41,333 nucleotides of DNA from a virus: IMG/VR virus record IMGVR_UViG_3300014050_000058, positions 1 to 41,333 of that record; one strand, 5' to 3'. A program made the position numbers and the translations under genes. This document shows, piece after piece, positions 2,402 to 40,668 of the stretch. Position 1 is the first letter of the stretch, and every line of letters begins with the position of its first letter. The notes beneath the pieces are model-generated. The model was not told where the DNA came from. It was given only the letters and a program-made list of their open reading frames with translations, and did not search any database.

Positions 2402-3895
2402 TCAATTGAGTAGACGTTGTTTGATGTTTTTCAGGCTGTTGGTTTCCCTTCCATAAATCACTGAGTCCTTGAAAACAGTTCTTAGGCATCCCAGTTCTTC
2501 TTGTTCAGGTGTTTGGCTCTGCAGGAGATAGAAATTTCCCTGAGAGTCTTTTTCGACCCGAAGAAGACCCTTAGCGGATTTTTTCACTCCACTGTCAGTC
2601 ACAGGGTCTTTCATCACTTCTACCCCAGTTCCATTGATGTCTACCCAGGTTGTTTTGAATCCGATTCCAAGGGTGTCTCGTGTGTGGTACTGGTAGGTGT
2701 AAGAACCGACTCCGAGGAGAATGTTACTACTGGCCCAACCTTGCTTTCTCATGGTTTCGAGGATGGACCGTGCCCTGGCAAGAGTAATGGAATCGCCGTA
2801 AATGAGACCGATTCTCGGGTTCAACTCTCGGAAGCCTTTCTCATTCACTGAGCCACCAAAGGTGTTCCAGAGAAGTTCGAGAGAACCCAAGTATGCTGGG
2901 CTGTTTGGATCTGCTTCAGGGTCTCCGCAAATGATCTTAAGAGGGTCACCACTATCAGGCCTGAAAACAACTTTGGCGAAACCTGAACTATTGGGTTGCC
3001 TACTCAGAATTTGTTCCTTGAGGGTGGGTGCAATGTTGGTAAGAACATTCCAGTAATTCCAAGTGTCGCTGACAATGCTGATAATTCCCGAGGGATAGAG
3101 CTCGGTAATAAGCCTGGTGTAGGTTTCAAGCTCGGTATCTTTACCGCCGGCAGACATCACACTGTGCTCTGTGGCTGGAACTCCCCCTCCGATGTAGTCT
3201 CCCCCTGTGTCGTAGTAGTCTTCGAGGAAGTCGATGGAAAGAATTGTATCTGTTCCGGTGAACGAAAACAGGTGGCCGATAGAGTGAGAAGCGGAATCGT
3301 GAACACCCCCGACTCCCCTAAACGAAAAGTCATGGGCTTGATAGTCTACGAAACTTTTGTCAGAGCAAGTTTCCTCAGCGTAGGAATCGAGCAGCTTGCG
3401 GTATTCGTAGGCAATTGTAGCGATGTTGACAGACTTCCAGATGTTTGAGGAGAGAGCGGACTCTACGTAGTTGGTTACCCAGTGGAAGTCAGGATGCGTA
3501 TTGACAGAAGTAAGAAAGGGTACTTTGATATCCACCCTGCTGCCCTCTGGCAGAGCTTTGATATGGAGTGGAATATATCCGAGATCGTGGAGTTCGGCCA
3601 AGTGATCAATTCCTACCACACCTTCTCCTAGGGATGTATCCATCCTACGCTTGTACTTATCAAGCACTTGTTTTTTGGGTTGCCTGAAGAAAGTGTCATT
3701 CCAAAGGTCTCTCAAGAACCAGGTAAGCTCTCCTTGGATTCCAGCCACTACAACTTTTCCATCGGATGCAATACCATTGGCATGGTTCAAAGACCTTGGC
3801 GTCATATTGGAGAATACATACCTAGTACCTTCGGGGTACTGTCGGTAATGGCCAGTCTTGTAAAAATCGGTGGCGGAAGGAGCAAATAGTTTCAT
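2402..3895 (-). CDS. nadV: nicotinamide phosphoribosyltransferase (Nampt/NadV-like)
   Basis: A 497-residue protein, full length for the Nampt family. This family joins nicotinamide to PRPP to make NMN or, in the phage NARP1 variant, joins nicotinamide to ADP-ribose-pyrophosphate to give NAD+ directly. Diagnostic segments are DFYKTGHYRQYP at the N-terminus, ATEHSVMSAGG (active-site His region), VSDTWNYWN, VFRPDSGDP and LLGVGSYTYQYHTRDTLG. Its ATG overlaps the stop of the PRPP-synthetase-like gene (ATGA), so the two are co-translated. That pairing is the organisation described for phage NAD+ reconstitution against NAD-depleting defences. Sequence alone does not tell NARP1 from a PRPP-fed salvage route. 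Confidence 0.93.
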   Translation of the reverse strand: MKLFAPSATDFYKTGHYRQYPEGTRYVFSNMTPRSLNHANGIASDGKVVVAGIQGELTWFLRDLWNDTFFRQPKKQVLDKYKRRMDTSLGEGVVGIDHLAELHDLGYIPLHIKALPEGSRVDIKVPFLTSVNTHPDFHWVTNYVESALSSNIWKSVNIATIAYEYRKLLDSYAEETCSDKSFVDYQAHDFSFRGVGGVHDSASHSIGHLFSFTGTDTILSIDFLEDYYDTGGDYIGGGVPATEHSVMSAGGKDTELETYTRLITELYPSGIISIVSDTWNYWNVLTNIAPTLKEQILSRQPNSSGFAKVVFRPDSGDPLKIICGDPEADPNSPAYLGSLELLWNTFGGSVNEKGFRELNPRIGLIYGDSITLARARSILETMRKQGWASSNILLGVGSYTYQYHTRDTLGIGFKTTWVDINGTGVEVMKDPVTDSGVKKSAKGLLRVEKDSQGNFYLLQSQTPEQEELGCLRTVFKDSVIYGRETNSLKNIKQRLLN

Positions 3896-4824
3896 TTGAG
3901 GGTGTATACAGCAGGAACAAAGGGGTTGCCTTCTACTGGCAGCTCGACGCCAGGGAACAAATTGGCTGTGTAGATTCGCTCAATGAGCAAGCGGTCGTCT
4001 TCCAGGAAGACATCTAAACCTTTAGAGAAGATTCCATGAGTGACGTAGAGACTTACCGAAGAAGGCTCAAGGTATTTCCAGATTTCCTTCGCAAGTTCTA
4101 TAAAAGTGCGACCCCCATCACAAATGTCGTCTACTATGAGAATGTCTTTTCCCTTGATAGATGCGGGAGAATTCTCGTGGGAGAGTCTCGTATTAAATCT
4201 ATTGACAAGTGCAGTACCAGTAATTTTTCCATCACCGGGGTCTCGAATTTTCTTACCAAGCACTTCCACCTGCAACCCAAAACCCAGAGCAGCTTTCTCG
4301 GCCCTGTCAATAGCCCCTTCATCGGGGGGTATGATAAGGGTGTTTTCGCCGGAAGGGAATCCTTTTTCGCCCTTGAAGGACTCAATCAAGTTGTCAACTT
4401 CAATATTGACAAACTCTGGTTCTCCTGAACCTTTGCGGCGAAACACATTAGACCCTGGGTTGTGTACGTCCCAAGTAATAATCTCGTCTCTATCATTAAG
4501 ATTGCTCTTCAGCGTATCGAAAAAGACCTTCAGGGAAAGGGACTCTCCCTGGAAGCATGCCCTATCCTGCCTAGAATAAGGGAGGTAAGGAATAACTACC
4601 CTCAAAGAAGCATCGGAAGACCTCTTTATAGCATCTATAAGGAGAAGAGATTCAATGATTTCTTCACTGTCAGGGTACAAAATCTTAACTGTAAACTCTC
4701 CGTACTCCTCAACGGAGGGGAGCCTGACATGCACTTCTCCAGCAGAGAAGTTGAATCTGTCATAGGGAATGGACACACTCTCAGAAGGGTCTCTTTTGAG
4801 TTTCCCGTGGAGGCTTATGGGCAT
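3892..4824 (-). CDS. ribose-phosphate pyrophosphokinase (Prs/Adps-like)
   Basis: A 310-residue member of the PRPP-synthetase family. It has the catalytic-loop-like PYLPYSRQDRACFQGE segment, WDVHNPG, and the phosphoribosyl-binding ILIVDDICDGGRTF. Classical Prs makes PRPP from ribose-5-phosphate and ATP; the phage paralogue Adps pyrophosphorylates ADP-ribose. Fusion of translation with the following Nampt gene (4-nt overlap) indicates one pathway. It is the first gene of its operon, with a leader of about 27 nt from the promoter at 4852-4897. Relative to host enzymes the subfamily is undetermined, so I give no gene symbol. Confidence 0.9.
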   Translation of the reverse strand: MPISLHGKLKRDPSESVSIPYDRFNFSAGEVHVRLPSVEEYGEFTVKILYPDSEEIIESLLLIDAIKRSSDASLRVVIPYLPYSRQDRACFQGESLSLKVFFDTLKSNLNDRDEIITWDVHNPGSNVFRRKGSGEPEFVNIEVDNLIESFKGEKGFPSGENTLIIPPDEGAIDRAEKAALGFGLQVEVLGKKIRDPGDGKITGTALVNRFNTRLSHENSPASIKGKDILIVDDICDGGRTFIELAKEIWKYLEPSSVSLYVTHGIFSKGLDVFLEDDRLLIERIYTANLFPGVELPVEGNPFVPAVYTLK

Positions 4825-6977: not shown

Positions 6978-7736
6978 CTACCTCCTACCGTGAGTGCCCC
7001 GGAATGAAAGCTTCGAGTCAAATCCTTTCTGAGAAAACCTTTGCCCCTCTTCCACTTGGATCGGAGGGGAACTGTCGGGGTTGTCCTTCAGAGTGTTCAT
7101 AAACATCGAAATTCTTTGGTACATCTGCTCAGCTTTTACGATCTTTTGGATGCCCAGTTCCCTTAGGCAAGGCGTTTCAACCTCAATTAACAACCTTGAT
7201 GAACCAGACTCTCTGATAACAAAGACTGGTTTTTGGATCCTCTTTGACACGTCAACCAGAGTTTTCACCTCTCTATTAACGACTTCTTCGTAAGAGAGTT
7301 TATTCTTGTTTAAAAGAGGCAGGTTCCATGAAAAACCTGGCCTGATGTAATCCCAAGAGGGATGGTCTCTTGGTATCACATGGAAGGAGTGGGTAGGGTC
7401 AGAAATGTGTTCAAACGGATGCCCAAGGGGCACTTCTTTTACCAGTAGATATAAACAACCACAGACTGACAACCATCTGAACCTCCAAGGGAACTGTTTC
7501 CAACTTAATAGGTTACTGCCGTTGTAGGAGGTGAGGGAATTAAAACGGGGCAAAGGGAAACCATGATTTTGGACCTCAACTATCAATGAGTTATTTGTGG
7601 GATATGTAGACTCGGTAAGAGGTTGATCCACAAAACACTTATCTCTCTCGTATCTGTTGGATTCATCCCCACCCTCTTTGCTGTAGAGAAACTCCACATA
7701 GTCATAGTAATCCCTGAACTTAGATACTATCCTCAT
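6978..7736 (-). CDS. MRIVSKFRDYYD-family phage protein (252 aa)
   Basis: I start at ATG 7736 because the protein then opens MRIVSKFRDYYDYVEFL, a start shared by a common family of hypothetical phage proteins. An upstream extension would run through the tmRNA. Central features are CGCLYLLVKEVP and HPFEHISDPTHSFHVIP. No catalytic motif is recognised. It follows the tmRNA and its terminator, so it depends on readthrough or an unrecognised promoter. Confidence 0.75.
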   Translation of the reverse strand: MRIVSKFRDYYDYVEFLYSKEGGDESNRYERDKCFVDQPLTESTYPTNNSLIVEVQNHGFPLPRFNSLTSYNGSNLLSWKQFPWRFRWLSVCGCLYLLVKEVPLGHPFEHISDPTHSFHVIPRDHPSWDYIRPGFSWNLPLLNKNKLSYEEVVNREVKTLVDVSKRIQKPVFVIRESGSSRLLIEVETPCLRELGIQKIVKAEQMYQRISMFMNTLKDNPDSSPPIQVEEGQRFSQKGFDSKLSFRGTHGRR

Positions 7737-7753
7737 GGCAAAACTTCCTAAAT

Positions 7754-7782
7754 TTGGAAAGAGGGAGACCTTAGCCTCCCTC
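7754..7782 (-). terminator. rho-independent terminator after tmRNA
   Basis: The minus strand reads GAGGGAG-GCTAAGGT-CTCCCTC followed by TTTCC: a 7-bp stem with a short U-rich tail, directly 3' of the tmRNA coding piece. It may alternatively be part of the tmRNA structure. Confidence 0.6.
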
Positions 7783-7992
7783 AAACAGAGTCGGAGTGCG
7801 TGGCTCAAACAGCCACAACAGCCCTCTCGAACTTGACGATTTTGTTAGCGTCTATTTTGTGCTTGTGCAAGCAGCTTTCACTTGAGTGAAATCTCCACCT
7901 CGTCGAAACCTTGGCACCCCCTTGTAATGGAAGTGAGGGGAATCGAACCCCTGTCCGAGATGTCATCTTCCCAAACTACACCTAGTTTTGAG
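7783..7992 (-). ncRNA. ssrA: two-piece, circularly permuted tmRNA
   Basis: The acceptor piece comes first (minus strand), with T arm GACAGGGGTTCGATTCCCC and 3' strand CACTTCC plus A73 at 7928. After only 6 nt the coding piece starts at 7921 with GGGGGTGCCAAGGTTTCGACG, carrying the tmRNA hallmark GGTTTCGACG. The two acceptor strands pair over 7 bp and include G3-U70, the alanine identity pair. The tag frame (7805-7849) begins at a GCT resume codon and encodes ANKIVKFERAVVAV. The permuted order and ANKIV start are typical of alpha-cyanobacteria. The tag's last residues are VAV rather than the usual VAA, which should weaken ClpXP recognition. CCA is not encoded. Transcription is probably from the promoter at 9284. 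Confidence 0.88.
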
Positions 7993-8271
7993 TCATTCGG
8001 TAGGACTATCCAACATCACTATTGAGGGAGAAGAAGCACCCATTGCAGCAATGTCGTCTTCCGAGAGAGTTTCGCAGAATTCTATAAAGTCATTGAGGCC
8101 CCAATGACACGCTTCGATCCACAATTTATTCCCTTCTTTGTCACTCGTTTGGAAGGCCAATGCCATTGCGTCGGATTCCCTCTGGTGACACAGGGCATAA
8201 GTCTCTTCGTCAAGAGAGACAGGTGCTCCGTTGCTCATCGCATATAGGACTCTGAGAAACTTAGGGCTCAT
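7993..8271 (-). CDS. hypothetical protein (92 aa)
   Basis: The ATG overlaps the stop of the 8268-8456 gene (ATGA), and the stop lies right at the 5' edge of the tmRNA acceptor piece. The protein is acidic and helical (LDEETYALCHQRESDAMALAF, FIEFCETLSEDDIAAMG). I do not recognise a family. Confidence 0.7.
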   Translation of the reverse strand: MSPKFLRVLYAMSNGAPVSLDEETYALCHQRESDAMALAFQTSDKEGNKLWIEACHWGLNDFIEFCETLSEDDIAAMGASSPSIVMLDSPTE

Positions 8272-9267: not shown

Positions 9268-9283
9268 TTGAAACCACCCTTAT

Positions 9284-9328
9284 ACTATAGAGGGCTTTGG
9301 GAGGAAAGTAAAGGTCGGGTTACCGAAC
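9284..9328 (-). promoter_or_regulatory. promoter for tRNA-Arg(CCT) and the tmRNA unit
   Basis: -35 TTTACT (9307-9312), 17-bp spacer, -10 TATAGT (9284-9289), with box GTTCGGTAACCCGACC abutting the -35. Confidence 0.85.
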
Positions 9329-9333
9329 TTCCC

Positions 9334-13665: not shown

Positions 13666-13734
13666 TTGGGAAGGCAGGATTCGAACCTGCAATTGAGTAC
13701 TCTGCGATGGGCTTTGCCGTTTGCCTACTTCCCA
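13666..13734 (-). tRNA. short tRNA-like element, anticodon unresolved
   Basis: Acceptor TGGGAAG/CTTCCCA, A73, D arm GGC-AAACGGCAAA-GCC and T arm GCAGG-TTCGAAT-CCTGC are good. The region between D and T arms is 4 nt short and gives no proper anticodon stem (CATCGCAGAGTACTCAATT). Total 69 nt. Confidence 0.5.
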
Positions 13735-14193: not shown

Positions 14194-14264
14194 TTGACAC
14201 GGCAGGAATCGAACCTGCTACCGCTGACTGTTACGCCCCAGCTCTACCAATGAGCTACGTGTCG
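14194..14264 (-). tRNA. tRNA-like element with C1-A72 mismatch and disrupted anticodon stem
   Basis: Acceptor CGACACG/CGTGTCA pairs at positions 2-7 but not at 1-72. D arm GCTC-ATTGGTA-GAGC and T arm GCAGG-TTCGATT-CCTGC are canonical. The anticodon region (GGGGCGTAACAGTCAGC) does not form a 5-bp stem with a 7-nt loop. The 5' mismatch is the kind of defect a Thg1-like enzyme can correct; the anticodon defect is not. Confidence 0.5.
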
Positions 14265-17445: not shown

Positions 17446-18234
17446 TCACTCCAGTCCCGAGACAAACCAATCATAAGAGATTCGACCTGGGGGCTCCCAC
17501 TCTGCCACCACCGTTCGAACGATGGGCTGCGTTGGCCTGTGTTTTTCCGGAATTTCCCTCAGAGTGATCCAAGGATTATCGGGTTCAAACACCACCTTTT
17601 GACGACGCACATAGGTTCCATGGGTGAAGAATCTCGGAAGTTGATCCCAAGGTTCTCCGATTTCTTGGAGCAAACCTTTCATCTCGTCGCAAGTTTTACC
17701 TTGAAGGAACCTGTGAGAGAAATGGTGGTGAGCCATCATGGACACCGAGTTTTTGGTGGCGTCGTTCAACCTCCAAAGAAAGTTTTTGTAAACGTGCTCC
17801 AAATCCGGGACGTTCCAGACACGGCAGTCGAACACTGGGTATTGACCCATTTTTTCTGGCAAGTACTTCGGAAGGTTGCTTGCGAAAAAAGAGCTCGCTG
17901 TGGAAGCCAACACAGAGGTCAATTTCTGGAATTTGCCACCAAACCAGTACTCTCTGTTTGAATACTGCTCTTTGTCAAGGTTCCAATATAGGGTGATCTC
18001 GTCGGATTGGCAGTAGCCAAGCAGAGCTTCGCTCTCTCCAACAAGGTGTTTGGTAGTTGCCACCATCAAGCGCACAAAACGCTCGTCAAACGGTCGTTTC
18101 AATCCCTTGGTGAATTTGCTAAAGCATTTACCGTCGATGCGAGCCATCAGAGGGAGAAAAGGGTCCGCCCGTCTCCCAGCTTCAAGCTGCTCTTGTTGCT
18201 TCAGGGTGTCTCCTAGAGTGTCGGCGTAGGTCAT
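17446..18234 (-). CDS. Thg1-like 3'-5' nucleotidyltransferase (tRNAHis guanylyltransferase family)
   Basis: A 262-residue member of the Thg1 family, which adds nucleotides to tRNA 5' ends in the 3'-5' direction. Landmarks are LMARIDGKCFSKFTKG (metal-binding Asp), LGYCQSDEITLYW (SDE catalytic pair), FDCRVWNVPD, RLNDATKNSVSMMAHHHFSH and FFTHGTYVRR. Bacterial and phage Thg1-like proteins mainly repair 5'-truncated tRNAs by templated addition. The window's tRNA-like genes with mismatched first acceptor positions make editing or repair attractive here. Last protein gene of the operon from 20839. Confidence 0.9.
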   Translation of the reverse strand: MTYADTLGDTLKQQEQLEAGRRADPFLPLMARIDGKCFSKFTKGLKRPFDERFVRLMVATTKHLVGESEALLGYCQSDEITLYWNLDKEQYSNREYWFGGKFQKLTSVLASTASSFFASNLPKYLPEKMGQYPVFDCRVWNVPDLEHVYKNFLWRLNDATKNSVSMMAHHHFSHRFLQGKTCDEMKGLLQEIGEPWDQLPRFFTHGTYVRRQKVVFEPDNPWITLREIPEKHRPTQPIVRTVVAEWEPPGRISYDWFVSGLE

Positions 18235-24471: not shown

Positions 24472-25233
24472 TCACTGAGCCATGGTGGCATCAAGGCGAA
24501 GCCCGTCTCGGAAGATTGCTTCTTGAGTGTGCCTGGGGAGTTCTCCCAGCAGGCGCAGAGAGTGCAGGGTGTTTGCACGGAACATCTTCACAAGCTCTTC
24601 ACGGATGCGCTCAACAGAAACTTTTGAGAGCATTTCGGCAGAGGACTCAGAAATAAGAGCTTCCCAAGAGTCTGCTTCTACGTCGAAGCCTTTGGTGATG
24701 TGAAATCGGAATCCCCGTGCCACTCGAAGGCCATCCTCAGCAATCCTTTCCTCAGGATTGCCCACAAAGGAGAGAACACCCTCCTCAACGTCCTTCACAC
24801 CACCCACAAGATCGACAATGTTGCCCTCAATGTCTCGGGCCAGAGCATTGCAGGTAAAGTCCCTGCGGAAAATGTCGTCCCTCAGGGAACCAGGCTTCAC
24901 CCAATCAGGGCGACGACCGTCACTGTAAGGACCGTCTTTCCGGGCCAGAACGAAGTCTGCCACCTTAGTACGGGATTGCAGGGGATGGCCCTGAGGGACC
25001 CGTGCACGGAGAGTGAGAGTCCGGAGGCTGATCTCCCTTTGTGCCGGGGTATCGTGCTTAAAGAACAGGAAACCTTGAGAGGTAAGAAACTCCTCAAGTG
25101 CATAGAAAGCAGTCTCAGCGTCCTGGAACAGGCCTTCTCGCGCTACAACGGAGAAGTCAACGTCCTTGCTGTCCAGCCCTAGCAGGCTGTCTCGGACGCA
25201 ACCACCAACCTCGTAGAAAGTGAAATCGTTCAT
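24472..25233 (-). CDS. cca: CCA-adding tRNA nucleotidyltransferase, short form, leaderless
   Basis: A 253-residue class II CCA/poly(A) polymerase. It has EVGGCVRDSLLG with KDVDFSVV (catalytic D-x-D), RRDFTCNALA, IVDLVGGVKDVEEG and RIAEDGLRVARGFRFH. Bacterial enzymes run to about 400 residues, so this copy holds head and neck but little body or tail. None of the window's tRNAs encodes CCA, so such an activity is needed for every one of them; the phage copy would secure it. Its ATG is 6 nt after the -10, indicating a leaderless message. Confidence 0.88.
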   Translation of the reverse strand: MNDFTFYEVGGCVRDSLLGLDSKDVDFSVVAREGLFQDAETAFYALEEFLTSQGFLFFKHDTPAQREISLRTLTLRARVPQGHPLQSRTKVADFVLARKDGPYSDGRRPDWVKPGSLRDDIFRRDFTCNALARDIEGNIVDLVGGVKDVEEGVLSFVGNPEERIAEDGLRVARGFRFHITKGFDVEADSWEALISESSAEMLSKVSVERIREELVKMFRANTLHSLRLLGELPRHTQEAIFRDGLRLDATMAQ

Positions 25234-27216: not shown

Positions 27217-27408
27217 TCACTCCGCCTCCAGCCAAGCTTTACAAGCCGACTCGAAGATCTCGTCATCGGACATGTCCCAGTAGATCGGGTCGTTCAATAT
27301 GAAGTTAACCTCGGAGACAGCCTCGTCGCGGCAGTTCCAGCCAGCATTATCCACAGCCCAAGCATCAACACGGGACATGATTCTGAAGAAGCGGTCGTTG
27401 TTTTCCAT
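27217..27408 (-). CDS. hypothetical protein (63 aa), leaderless
   Basis: ATG 6 nt after the -10. Acidic with several Trp (DAWAVDNAGWNC, YWDMSDDEIFESACKAWLE). Function unknown. Confidence 0.72.
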   Translation of the reverse strand: MENNDRFFRIMSRVDAWAVDNAGWNCRDEAVSEVNFILNDPIYWDMSDDEIFESACKAWLEAE

Positions 27409-27414
27409 ACTAAT

Positions 27415-27480
27415 ATCATAGCGCTTCTGGCGAGCACAGCCAAGGGGGCGAACCGAACGGTTCGGTTCGGGTAACCGACC
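27415..27480 (-). promoter_or_regulatory. leaderless-type promoter
   Basis: -35 TTGGCT (27438-27443), 17-bp spacer, -10 TATGAT (27415-27420), 6 nt to ATG. Double box including GGTTCGGTTCGCCCCC. Confidence 0.87.
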
Positions 27481-27492
27481 CCCTACAAGGGT

Positions 27493-28600: not shown

Positions 28601-29524
28601 TCAGGAAAGAGCAAGCATTTGCTCTAGCGGCTGCAATGCTCTGACCCTAAGCCCCTCTTCAAGGTGAATTTGAGGGCTTAAATCTCTCAAGCAGTTGCGC
28701 ACTTTTTCAAGAGTATTGAGACGCATATAAGGGCAAAGATTGCAATTGCAACCATTCCTATTTGGGACTTCGAGATAAGTTTTATCTGGTGCCAACTGTC
28801 TCATCTTGTGGATGATGCCAGGCTCCGTGAGAACAATAAAAGTTTTCGCCTCACTCTCCTGAACCCTGCGTAACAAGGCACTCGTAGAACCAACAAAGTC
28901 CGAAAGTCGCAATAAGGCTTCTTCGCACTCAGGGTGAGCAATCACCTCGCACCCCGGATTGCTGTTCCAAAGTTCCATGAGTGCTTCTTCGCAAAATTGC
29001 TCATGGACTTGGCAACTGCCATCCCAGAGCGTCAACTCGCGGCTTGTTTGCTCAGCAACCCAACGTCCCAGATTCTTGTCCGGTGCAAACAGAATCGGAC
29101 GGTCCTTTGGAATTTGATTTACAAGACGAACAGCATTACTGCTGGTGCAAATTAGATCACTCTGGGCCTTAATCGCTGCTGAACAGTTTATATAGCTAAT
29201 TACGTAATGGTCAGGGTGCTTCTCACGGAACTTGGCGAAATCATCGGGCAAGCAAGCATCGGCAAGGCTGCACCCTGCATTAAGGTCTGGCAGCAAGACG
29301 GTCTTGTTCGGATTGACAATCTTCGCTGTTTCTGCCATGAAATGAACTCCGCAAAAGACAATCGTGTCCGCATCCGTTCCAGCAGCTTGGCGGGCCAGTT
29401 CAAGGGAATCTCCAACGAAATCAGCAATTTCCTGGATTTCAGGGTCTTGGTAGTAATGCGCCAGGATGACTGCTTTCCTTTGCTCTTTCAGTTCGAGGAT
29501 TTCTTCACTCAGGGTCATCCTCAT
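28601..29524 (-). CDS. nadA: quinolinate synthase NadA
   Basis: A 307-residue full-length NadA, the [4Fe-4S] enzyme that condenses iminoaspartate with dihydroxyacetone phosphate to quinolinate in de novo NAD synthesis. Landmarks are [42 protein letters not shown] (Cys85), [25 protein letters not shown] (Cys171), [10 protein letters not shown] and [15 protein letters not shown]. The three expected cluster cysteines are available. It is the last gene of an operon of small proteins and overlaps the upstream stop by 20 nt. A biosynthetic gene of this kind is rare in phages and likely came from a cyanobacterium. Confidence 0.93.
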
Positions 29525-33377: not shown

Positions 33378-33410
33378 TGTGGTTTGGGAAGAATGGCTCA
33401 ACTACCCTCT

Positions 33411-33456
33411 ATCTTAGACCAGAGAGCGAGGGAAGTAAAGGTCGGGTAACCGAACC
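33411..33456 (-). promoter_or_regulatory. promoter
   Basis: -35 TTTACT (33434-33439), 17-bp spacer, -10 TAAGAT (33411-33416), box GGTTCGGTTACCCGACC. Starts 3 nt after the 33460 stop. Confidence 0.85.
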
Positions 33457-40425: not shown

Positions 40426-40569
40426 TCAGTTGTAACCGGCTCTCGTCAAAGCTTCGCGAATCATTTCGATTTCTTTGTCCCAGTTGAAGTAACCATCTAA
40501 GGCTTCCAACCTTGCGGCTAAAGCCTCAAAAGCCAACGTAACCTCGTTCTTGTTAAATTCGTTTTCCAT
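40426..40569 (-). CDS. hypothetical protein (47 aa), leaderless
   Basis: ATG 40569 is 6 nt after the -10. MENEFNKNEVTLAFEALAAR then DGYFNWDKEIEMIREALTRA, a compact helical protein below usual ORF size cut-offs. Promoter position makes it convincing. Function unknown. Confidence 0.7.
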   Translation of the reverse strand: MENEFNKNEVTLAFEALAARLEALDGYFNWDKEIEMIREALTRAGYN

Positions 40570-40575
40570 ACCTCT

Positions 40576-40640
40576 ATGATAGCGTTTCGGCGGAGCGGAG
40601 ACAAGGGTGCGAACCGAACGATTCGGTTCGGGTAACCGAT
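40576..40640 (-). promoter_or_regulatory. leaderless-type promoter
   Basis: -35 TTGTCT (40599-40604), 17-bp spacer, -10 TATCAT (40576-40581), 6 nt to ATG. Boxes GGTTACCCGAACC and GTTCGGTTCGC. Confidence 0.87.
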
Positions 40641-40668
40641 CCGATTTTCTTTAGCTTCTTAGTTAATT

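Follow-up and report, generated by a model that had tools for sequence, protein, structure and literature searches.

A cyanophage two-piece tmRNA of alpha-cyanobacterial type with a valine-ending tag, and the recurrence of that ending among cyanophages

The minus strand of a 41,333-base IMG/VR viral record (the window, by which the whole record is meant) carries, at 7996..7758, a permuted tmRNA gene whose tag, ANKIVKFERAVVAV, ends in Val-Ala-Val and not in the host-like Ala-Ala. Judged by its sequence features, the gene is phage-encoded and specifies a circularly permuted (two-piece) tmRNA of the alpha-cyanobacterial type that looks functional, its activity being predicted; the gene itself is a further member of the already known phage-borne two-piece tmRNAs. 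Terminal Val is recurrent in cyanophages, where it occurs in separate lineages (the counts of changes are approximate), and our searches of the literature turned up no earlier description of an Ala-Ala end lost recurrently and only in viruses.

ARAGORN called a permuted tmRNA (tmRNA*) with this tag at 7714-8017 on the minus strand. Two Rfam covariance models were matched over their whole length: tmRNA_permuted (RF04321; gathering cut-off 47 bits) at 7976..7805 with 84.1 bits (E 8e-15), and cyano_tmRNA (RF01851; gathering cut-off 70 bits) at 7996..7764 with 81.0 bits (E 3e-20). These matches confirm the original prediction of a phage-encoded, circularly permuted tmRNA of alpha-cyanobacterial type, which had named the cyano_tmRNA search as one of its checks; the location that it gave is also real, the strand, which it had left unstated, being minus. 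A chance match or an assembly oddity is rejected on the strength of the ARAGORN and Rfam matches, a near-identical separate contig (L018; 99.85% identity over 11.8 kb) and a counterpart in Synechococcus phage S-CBWM1. On one side of it a 92-aa ORF ends at 7993 and on the other a gene starts near 7733; both run in the same direction as the tmRNA. Its elements are listed in Table 1.

Table 1. Elements of the permuted tmRNA gene of the window
Element	Positions	Strand	Basis
Upstream half: acceptor piece (T arm, acceptor 3' strand, A73) and intervening sequence	7922..7996	-	RF01851 and RF04321 alignments, ARAGORN
T arm: stem AGGGG/CCCCU, loop UUCGAUU	7936..7952	-	Rfam alignment, fold
Acceptor stem 3' strand CACUUCC (positions 66-72), U70 at 7931	7929..7935	-	Rfam alignment, sequence, fold
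Discriminator A73	7928	-	Rfam alignment, sequence, fold
Intervening sequence UUACAA, 6 nt; putatively removed, leaving two pieces	7922..7927	-	Read from sequence
Acceptor stem 5' strand GGGGGUG, G3 at 7919	7915..7921	-	Rfam alignment, sequence
tRNA-like D-loop motif GGUUUCGACG	7901..7910	-	Rfam alignment
Tag coding sequence, resume codon GCU (7849-7847), peptide ANKIVKFERAVVAV	7808..7849	-	ARAGORN, Rfam alignment
Tag stop codon UGA	7805..7807	-	ARAGORN
Hairpin GUGGCU-GUUUG-AGCCAC, last Val codon GUU in loop	7800..7816	-	Fold
3' hairpin GAGGGAG-N8-CUCCCUC then UUU: terminator-like or coding-piece 3' end	7758..7782	-	RF01851 match end, sequence

As had been foreseen, the acceptor piece precedes the coding piece with only the UUACAA hexamer between them, and the acceptor stem keeps G3.U70 (7919.7931); the Rfam alignment and the sequence agree on both points. 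The stem, GGGGGUG/CACUUCC, forms 7 of 7 standard pairs, two of which are G.U, namely this alanine identity pair and a second wobble, G4.U69, read from the sequence. The tag frame (GCU...GUU UGA) is open. By Rfam alignment, sequence and fold the gene has intact charging identity elements, T arm and D-loop motif, which were counted in favour of a working tmRNA. Folded alone, the coding piece had an energy no better than that of shuffled sequences, as is expected of a two-piece RNA without its partner.

The tmRNA does not encode CCA, which must therefore be added. The tRNA 3' ends printed by ARAGORN for the window likewise show none, and a CCA enzyme carried by the phage would fit this. The window specifies (24472-25233, minus strand) a 253-aa protein in which both the head domain and the RNA-binding domain of CCA-adding tRNA nucleotidyltransferases are recognized (PF01743, PF12627); NCBIfam CCA models match it under their cut-off, and it is best termed CCA-enzyme-like. 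An extra tRNA-like match at 13666-13734 on the minus strand (Rfam tRNA, 40.6 bits) received no ARAGORN call, and at 14194-14264, close by, the anticodon is unreadable.

The RNA resembles the two-piece tmRNA of alpha-cyanobacteria (RF01851; Prochlorococcus/Synechococcus ssrA) in its permuted order, its G3.U70 acceptor stem, its lack of an encoded CCA, the ANKIV/ANNIV start of its tag and the hairpin over the tag end and stop codon. It differs in its shorter intervening and 3' parts and in its tag, which has 14 residues and ends in VAV, that of the hosts having 16 and ending in PVAA. Most host genes score 299-336 bits with cyano_tmRNA, far above the 81 bits of the phage gene, which is therefore diverged and trimmed.

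The nearest tmRNA from a sequenced isolate belongs to S-CBWM1 (MG450654, 23896-24077); it shows 76% identity over the conserved part and falls within the same well-supported clade, and unlike the gene in the window it has a longer intervening sequence and a tag, ANKIVAFHRQAVSCA, ending in SCA. More distant tmRNAs are present in S-SSM7, S-SSM6a, S-CAM1, S-CAM3, S-CRM01, Sf-FS3 and the single-cell virus AG-345-P14; the S-SSM7 tag ends in ELVTA. The window, S-CBWM1 and S-CRM01 share an RlpA-like gene close to the tmRNA, the flanking genes otherwise differing. The cyanophage records that were examined miss their tmRNA genes: the RNA is unannotated in S-CBWM1 and throughout the public records L055, L056, L058, L059, L180, L181 and L182, in several of which the annotation has a small hypothetical ORF at that place (SSSM7_025 in S-SSM7, for example). 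Neither SmpB nor a ClpP homologue was found in five complete relatives, in the partial relatives or in the window; with SmpB missing from the phage relatives, that of the host must serve.

The window tag lacks the C-terminal Ala-Ala after a hydrophobic residue that characterizes the ssrA-class ClpXP degron (-LAA/-VAA). A host-like -AA end is usual in cellular cyano_tmRNA members and lies outside the RF01851 model. Tags of the hosts end in -AA in 117 of 117 alpha-cyanobacterial genomes (116 VAA, 1 IAA), which agrees with the VAA ending assumed in the original prediction, and all 32 further host loci end in VAA (30 came from an order-level search, and at least two repeat genomes already counted). 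Of 30 one-piece tags from the wider cyanobacterial phylum, 28 have a terminal Ala; two genomes from the phylum search, L268 and L286, have predicted tags ending in LAGV and LAGL, not -AA. The cyanophage-type set, gathered from isolates and from IMG/VR pattern scans that placed no condition on the tag end, comprised 95 loci and 71 distinct genes. Terminal Val occurs in 38 of these 71, in 22 distinct tags (VAV, ALV, SLV, TLV, FLV, QTV, VSV); -AA is kept in 23 (13 tags), and 10 have other non-AA ends (5 ATA, 3 VTA, 1 SCA and 1 AAL). The second viral scan was biased to short tags by its spacing limit; of the 29 cyanophage-type loci from the first alone, 17 end in Val, 11 in AA and 1 otherwise. The altered end noticed in this one phage is thus real, recurs in cyanophages and is absent from alpha-cyanobacterial hosts. 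The Val-ending class is known from metagenome contigs only, with none among the isolates found.

A general phage habit of ending tags in Val is rejected, since other phages and viral contigs keep Ala: none of 112 control calls ends in Val, a sample that has a few spurious-looking calls and in which some contigs may derive from prophages or hosts. It comprised 34 one-piece tmRNAs and 60 permuted ones of other bacterial types, 15 further contigs that came from the first scan, and three isolates, Stenotrophomonas phage DLP6, Pseudomonas phage SM1 and Acinetobacter phage BUCT628. The three isolates carry unannotated permuted beta-type tmRNAs with -AA tags and scores of 119-137 bits (DLP6, L226 1472-1693; SM1, L227 1507-1806; BUCT628, L228 1478-1692). 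Their gammaproteobacterial hosts use one-piece tmRNA.

A maximum-likelihood tree that excluded the tag was inferred from the tRNA-like and upstream parts (153 columns), and on it a fully supported branch sets the hosts apart. Among the phage genes, terminal Val changes at least 8 times (bootstrap 8-8), or 3 times on well-supported branches alone, and the loss of -AA involves 13 changes (bootstrap 11-13), or 4 on well-supported branches alone; these counts are blind to gain versus loss, and are approximate in a tree with several long branches and many weak nodes. The well-supported branches rule out a single origin of terminal Val without reversal. One contig, L040 (2376-2690, minus strand), has the tRNA-like domain of the Val-ending group together with an STVAA tag of the other group, and looks like a recombinant between phage tmRNAs.

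What a terminal Val does to a tag can be gauged from published fusions. The strength of ssrA tags in Synechocystis follows the order LVA > AAV > ASV (available text of PMC3446811, citing Huang 2010), and in Salmonella the AAV and ASV tags act more slowly, all degradation being lost without ClpXP (PMC11003136). As AAV and ASV proteins are slower to be degraded yet still degraded, terminal Val attenuates the degron and does not abolish it. The predicted fall in ClpXP recognition of a VAV end fits these results; the suggestion that tagged products would be spared was too strong, and slower degradation is the better description. AAV and ASV end in Val like the window tag; with LVA, they are laboratory constructs on the E. 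coli tag, whereas the cyanophage change is natural and recurrent. The available text of PMC2862035 reports that propagation of λimmP22 in E. coli needs ribosome recycling and not targeting to proteolysis, as judged with ssrA mutants, and that heterologous tmRNAs show a secondary role of tagging.

On balance we favour the view that the cyanophage tmRNA keeps ribosome recycling while its Val-ending tag lowers the proteolysis that follows. The RNA would be transcribed with its neighbours during infection and cut by host tRNA-processing enzymes into acceptor and coding pieces; a tRNA nucleotidyltransferase would add CCA, and G3.U70 would direct charging with alanine. Host SmpB and the phage tmRNA would then release ribosomes stuck on broken mRNAs, and the appended tag, ending in Val instead of Ala-Ala, would be a weakened ClpXP degron. 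The phage plausibly gains from ribosome rescue during messenger breakdown, and fast ClpXP-dependent loss of tagged, partly viral, proteins may be useless or costly to it. More tentatively, and with somewhat less than even confidence, we propose that cyanophages took the host two-piece tmRNA and repeatedly and independently made its tag weak or differently read, ribosomes being recycled without prompt destruction of what is tagged. Several observations weigh against the favoured view: weakening does not extend to the 23 genes that keep -AA; from GCN codons no single-base change comes more easily than A to V or A to T, which drift by itself would favour; the Val-ending class is absent from the isolates found; and the published Val-ending tags were slowed only.

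The main rival, and a serious one although we judge it unlikely, is relaxed selection, under which the tmRNA is kept for rescue and the degron decays since the fate of the tag is irrelevant in a short lytic cycle, Val being the easiest mutation. The variety of the losses (VAV, ATA, VTA, SCA, AAL), the fact that the simple ones (A to V, A to T) need just one transition in a GCN codon, and the retention of -AA in some lineages all speak for it. Yet terminal Val is kept through synonymous GTT, GTA and GTG codons next to a variable preceding residue (A, L, T or S), separate lineages have it, and decay should also have yielded charged and polar ends, of which none was seen. The persistence of Val, as opposed to random residues, might instead mean that the end is read differently, not more weakly, another protease, an adaptor or a phage-altered ClpX sending tagged products elsewhere. 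Tail-specific proteases of the Tsp/Ctp type do accept small non-polar C-termini, including Val. We regard such re-routing as improbable, given that the AAV and ASV tags of Salmonella were degraded by ClpXP only (PMC11003136) and that the five complete relatives have no ClpP homologue.

A driver at the RNA level was also considered: the last codon and the stop pair with earlier tag codons, so that GCU to GUU would remove an A.C mismatch, the change in the protein being a by-product. Folds do place the tag end and stop codon in a hairpin in hosts and phages alike, and the SLV group has a compensatory pair change in it (GCACC/GGUGU versus GUACC/GGUAU). The Val codon is base-paired in SLV and VSV tags; it lies in the loop in the window and in most other VAV and QTV tags, however, and faces a mismatch in APVAV tags, so that no pairing is gained there. 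With Val kept in paired and loop contexts while its third base varies, pairing alone is no explanation, and a pure RNA-pairing cause is disfavoured, being a shade less probable still than re-routing. Least probable of all, and very unlikely, is that the RNA titrates SmpB as a decoy or is an unused relic, after the manner of the tRNA-domain-only tmRNA of mycobacteriophage DS6A (available text of PMC4131195 and PMC11915505). Beyond that precedent, the score of 81 bits against about 300 in hosts is what such a relic might show, but the gene retains intact acceptor, T and D elements, a resume codon, an open tag frame and its stop codon, all conserved across very diverged phages.

If true, the favoured reading of a weakened tag describes a recurrent, virus-only change at exactly the residue controlling ClpXP recognition, through which natural selection would have separated the two functions of trans-translation, and the Val-ending tags are candidate naturally attenuated degrons for cyanobacteria. 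The more tentative reading would run counter to the published proposal in which the tmRNA of a phage marks host proteins for degradation; the published guess for lytic phages is amino-acid recycling by that route. According to the available text of PMC9004378, an earlier survey of phage-borne two-piece tmRNAs recovered 53 structures, of which marine or aquatic samples contributed 50, and suggested that they tag host proteins for degradation. The same text describes phage-encoded permuted tmRNAs, like that of the window, in methylophage Melnitz and other aquatic phages; the Melnitz RNA, unlike ours, is of alphaproteobacterial type, lies under a glutamine riboswitch and is proposed to tag host proteins for degradation. 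The tmRNA database holds 79 bacteriophage sequences (available text of PMC11915505), and in the available text of these two reports we found no discussion of phage tmRNA tag ends.

Other genes of the window include one for a protein with a Thg1-like tRNA-His guanylyltransferase domain (17446-18234, minus strand; PF04446), unusual in a phage, and an NAD-related set at 2402-4824 and 28601-29524 on the minus strand, comprising nicotinamide phosphoribosyltransferase, PRPP synthase and quinolinate synthase NadA. About 20 dispersed repeats of three families (D1-D3) are also present, in which a GGTTCGG/CCGAACC palindrome adjoins a TAT-rich block (e.g. 27400-27481, 40561-40642, 9281-9329 and 33408-33456). 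On the minus strand they look like terminator and promoter modules between genes.
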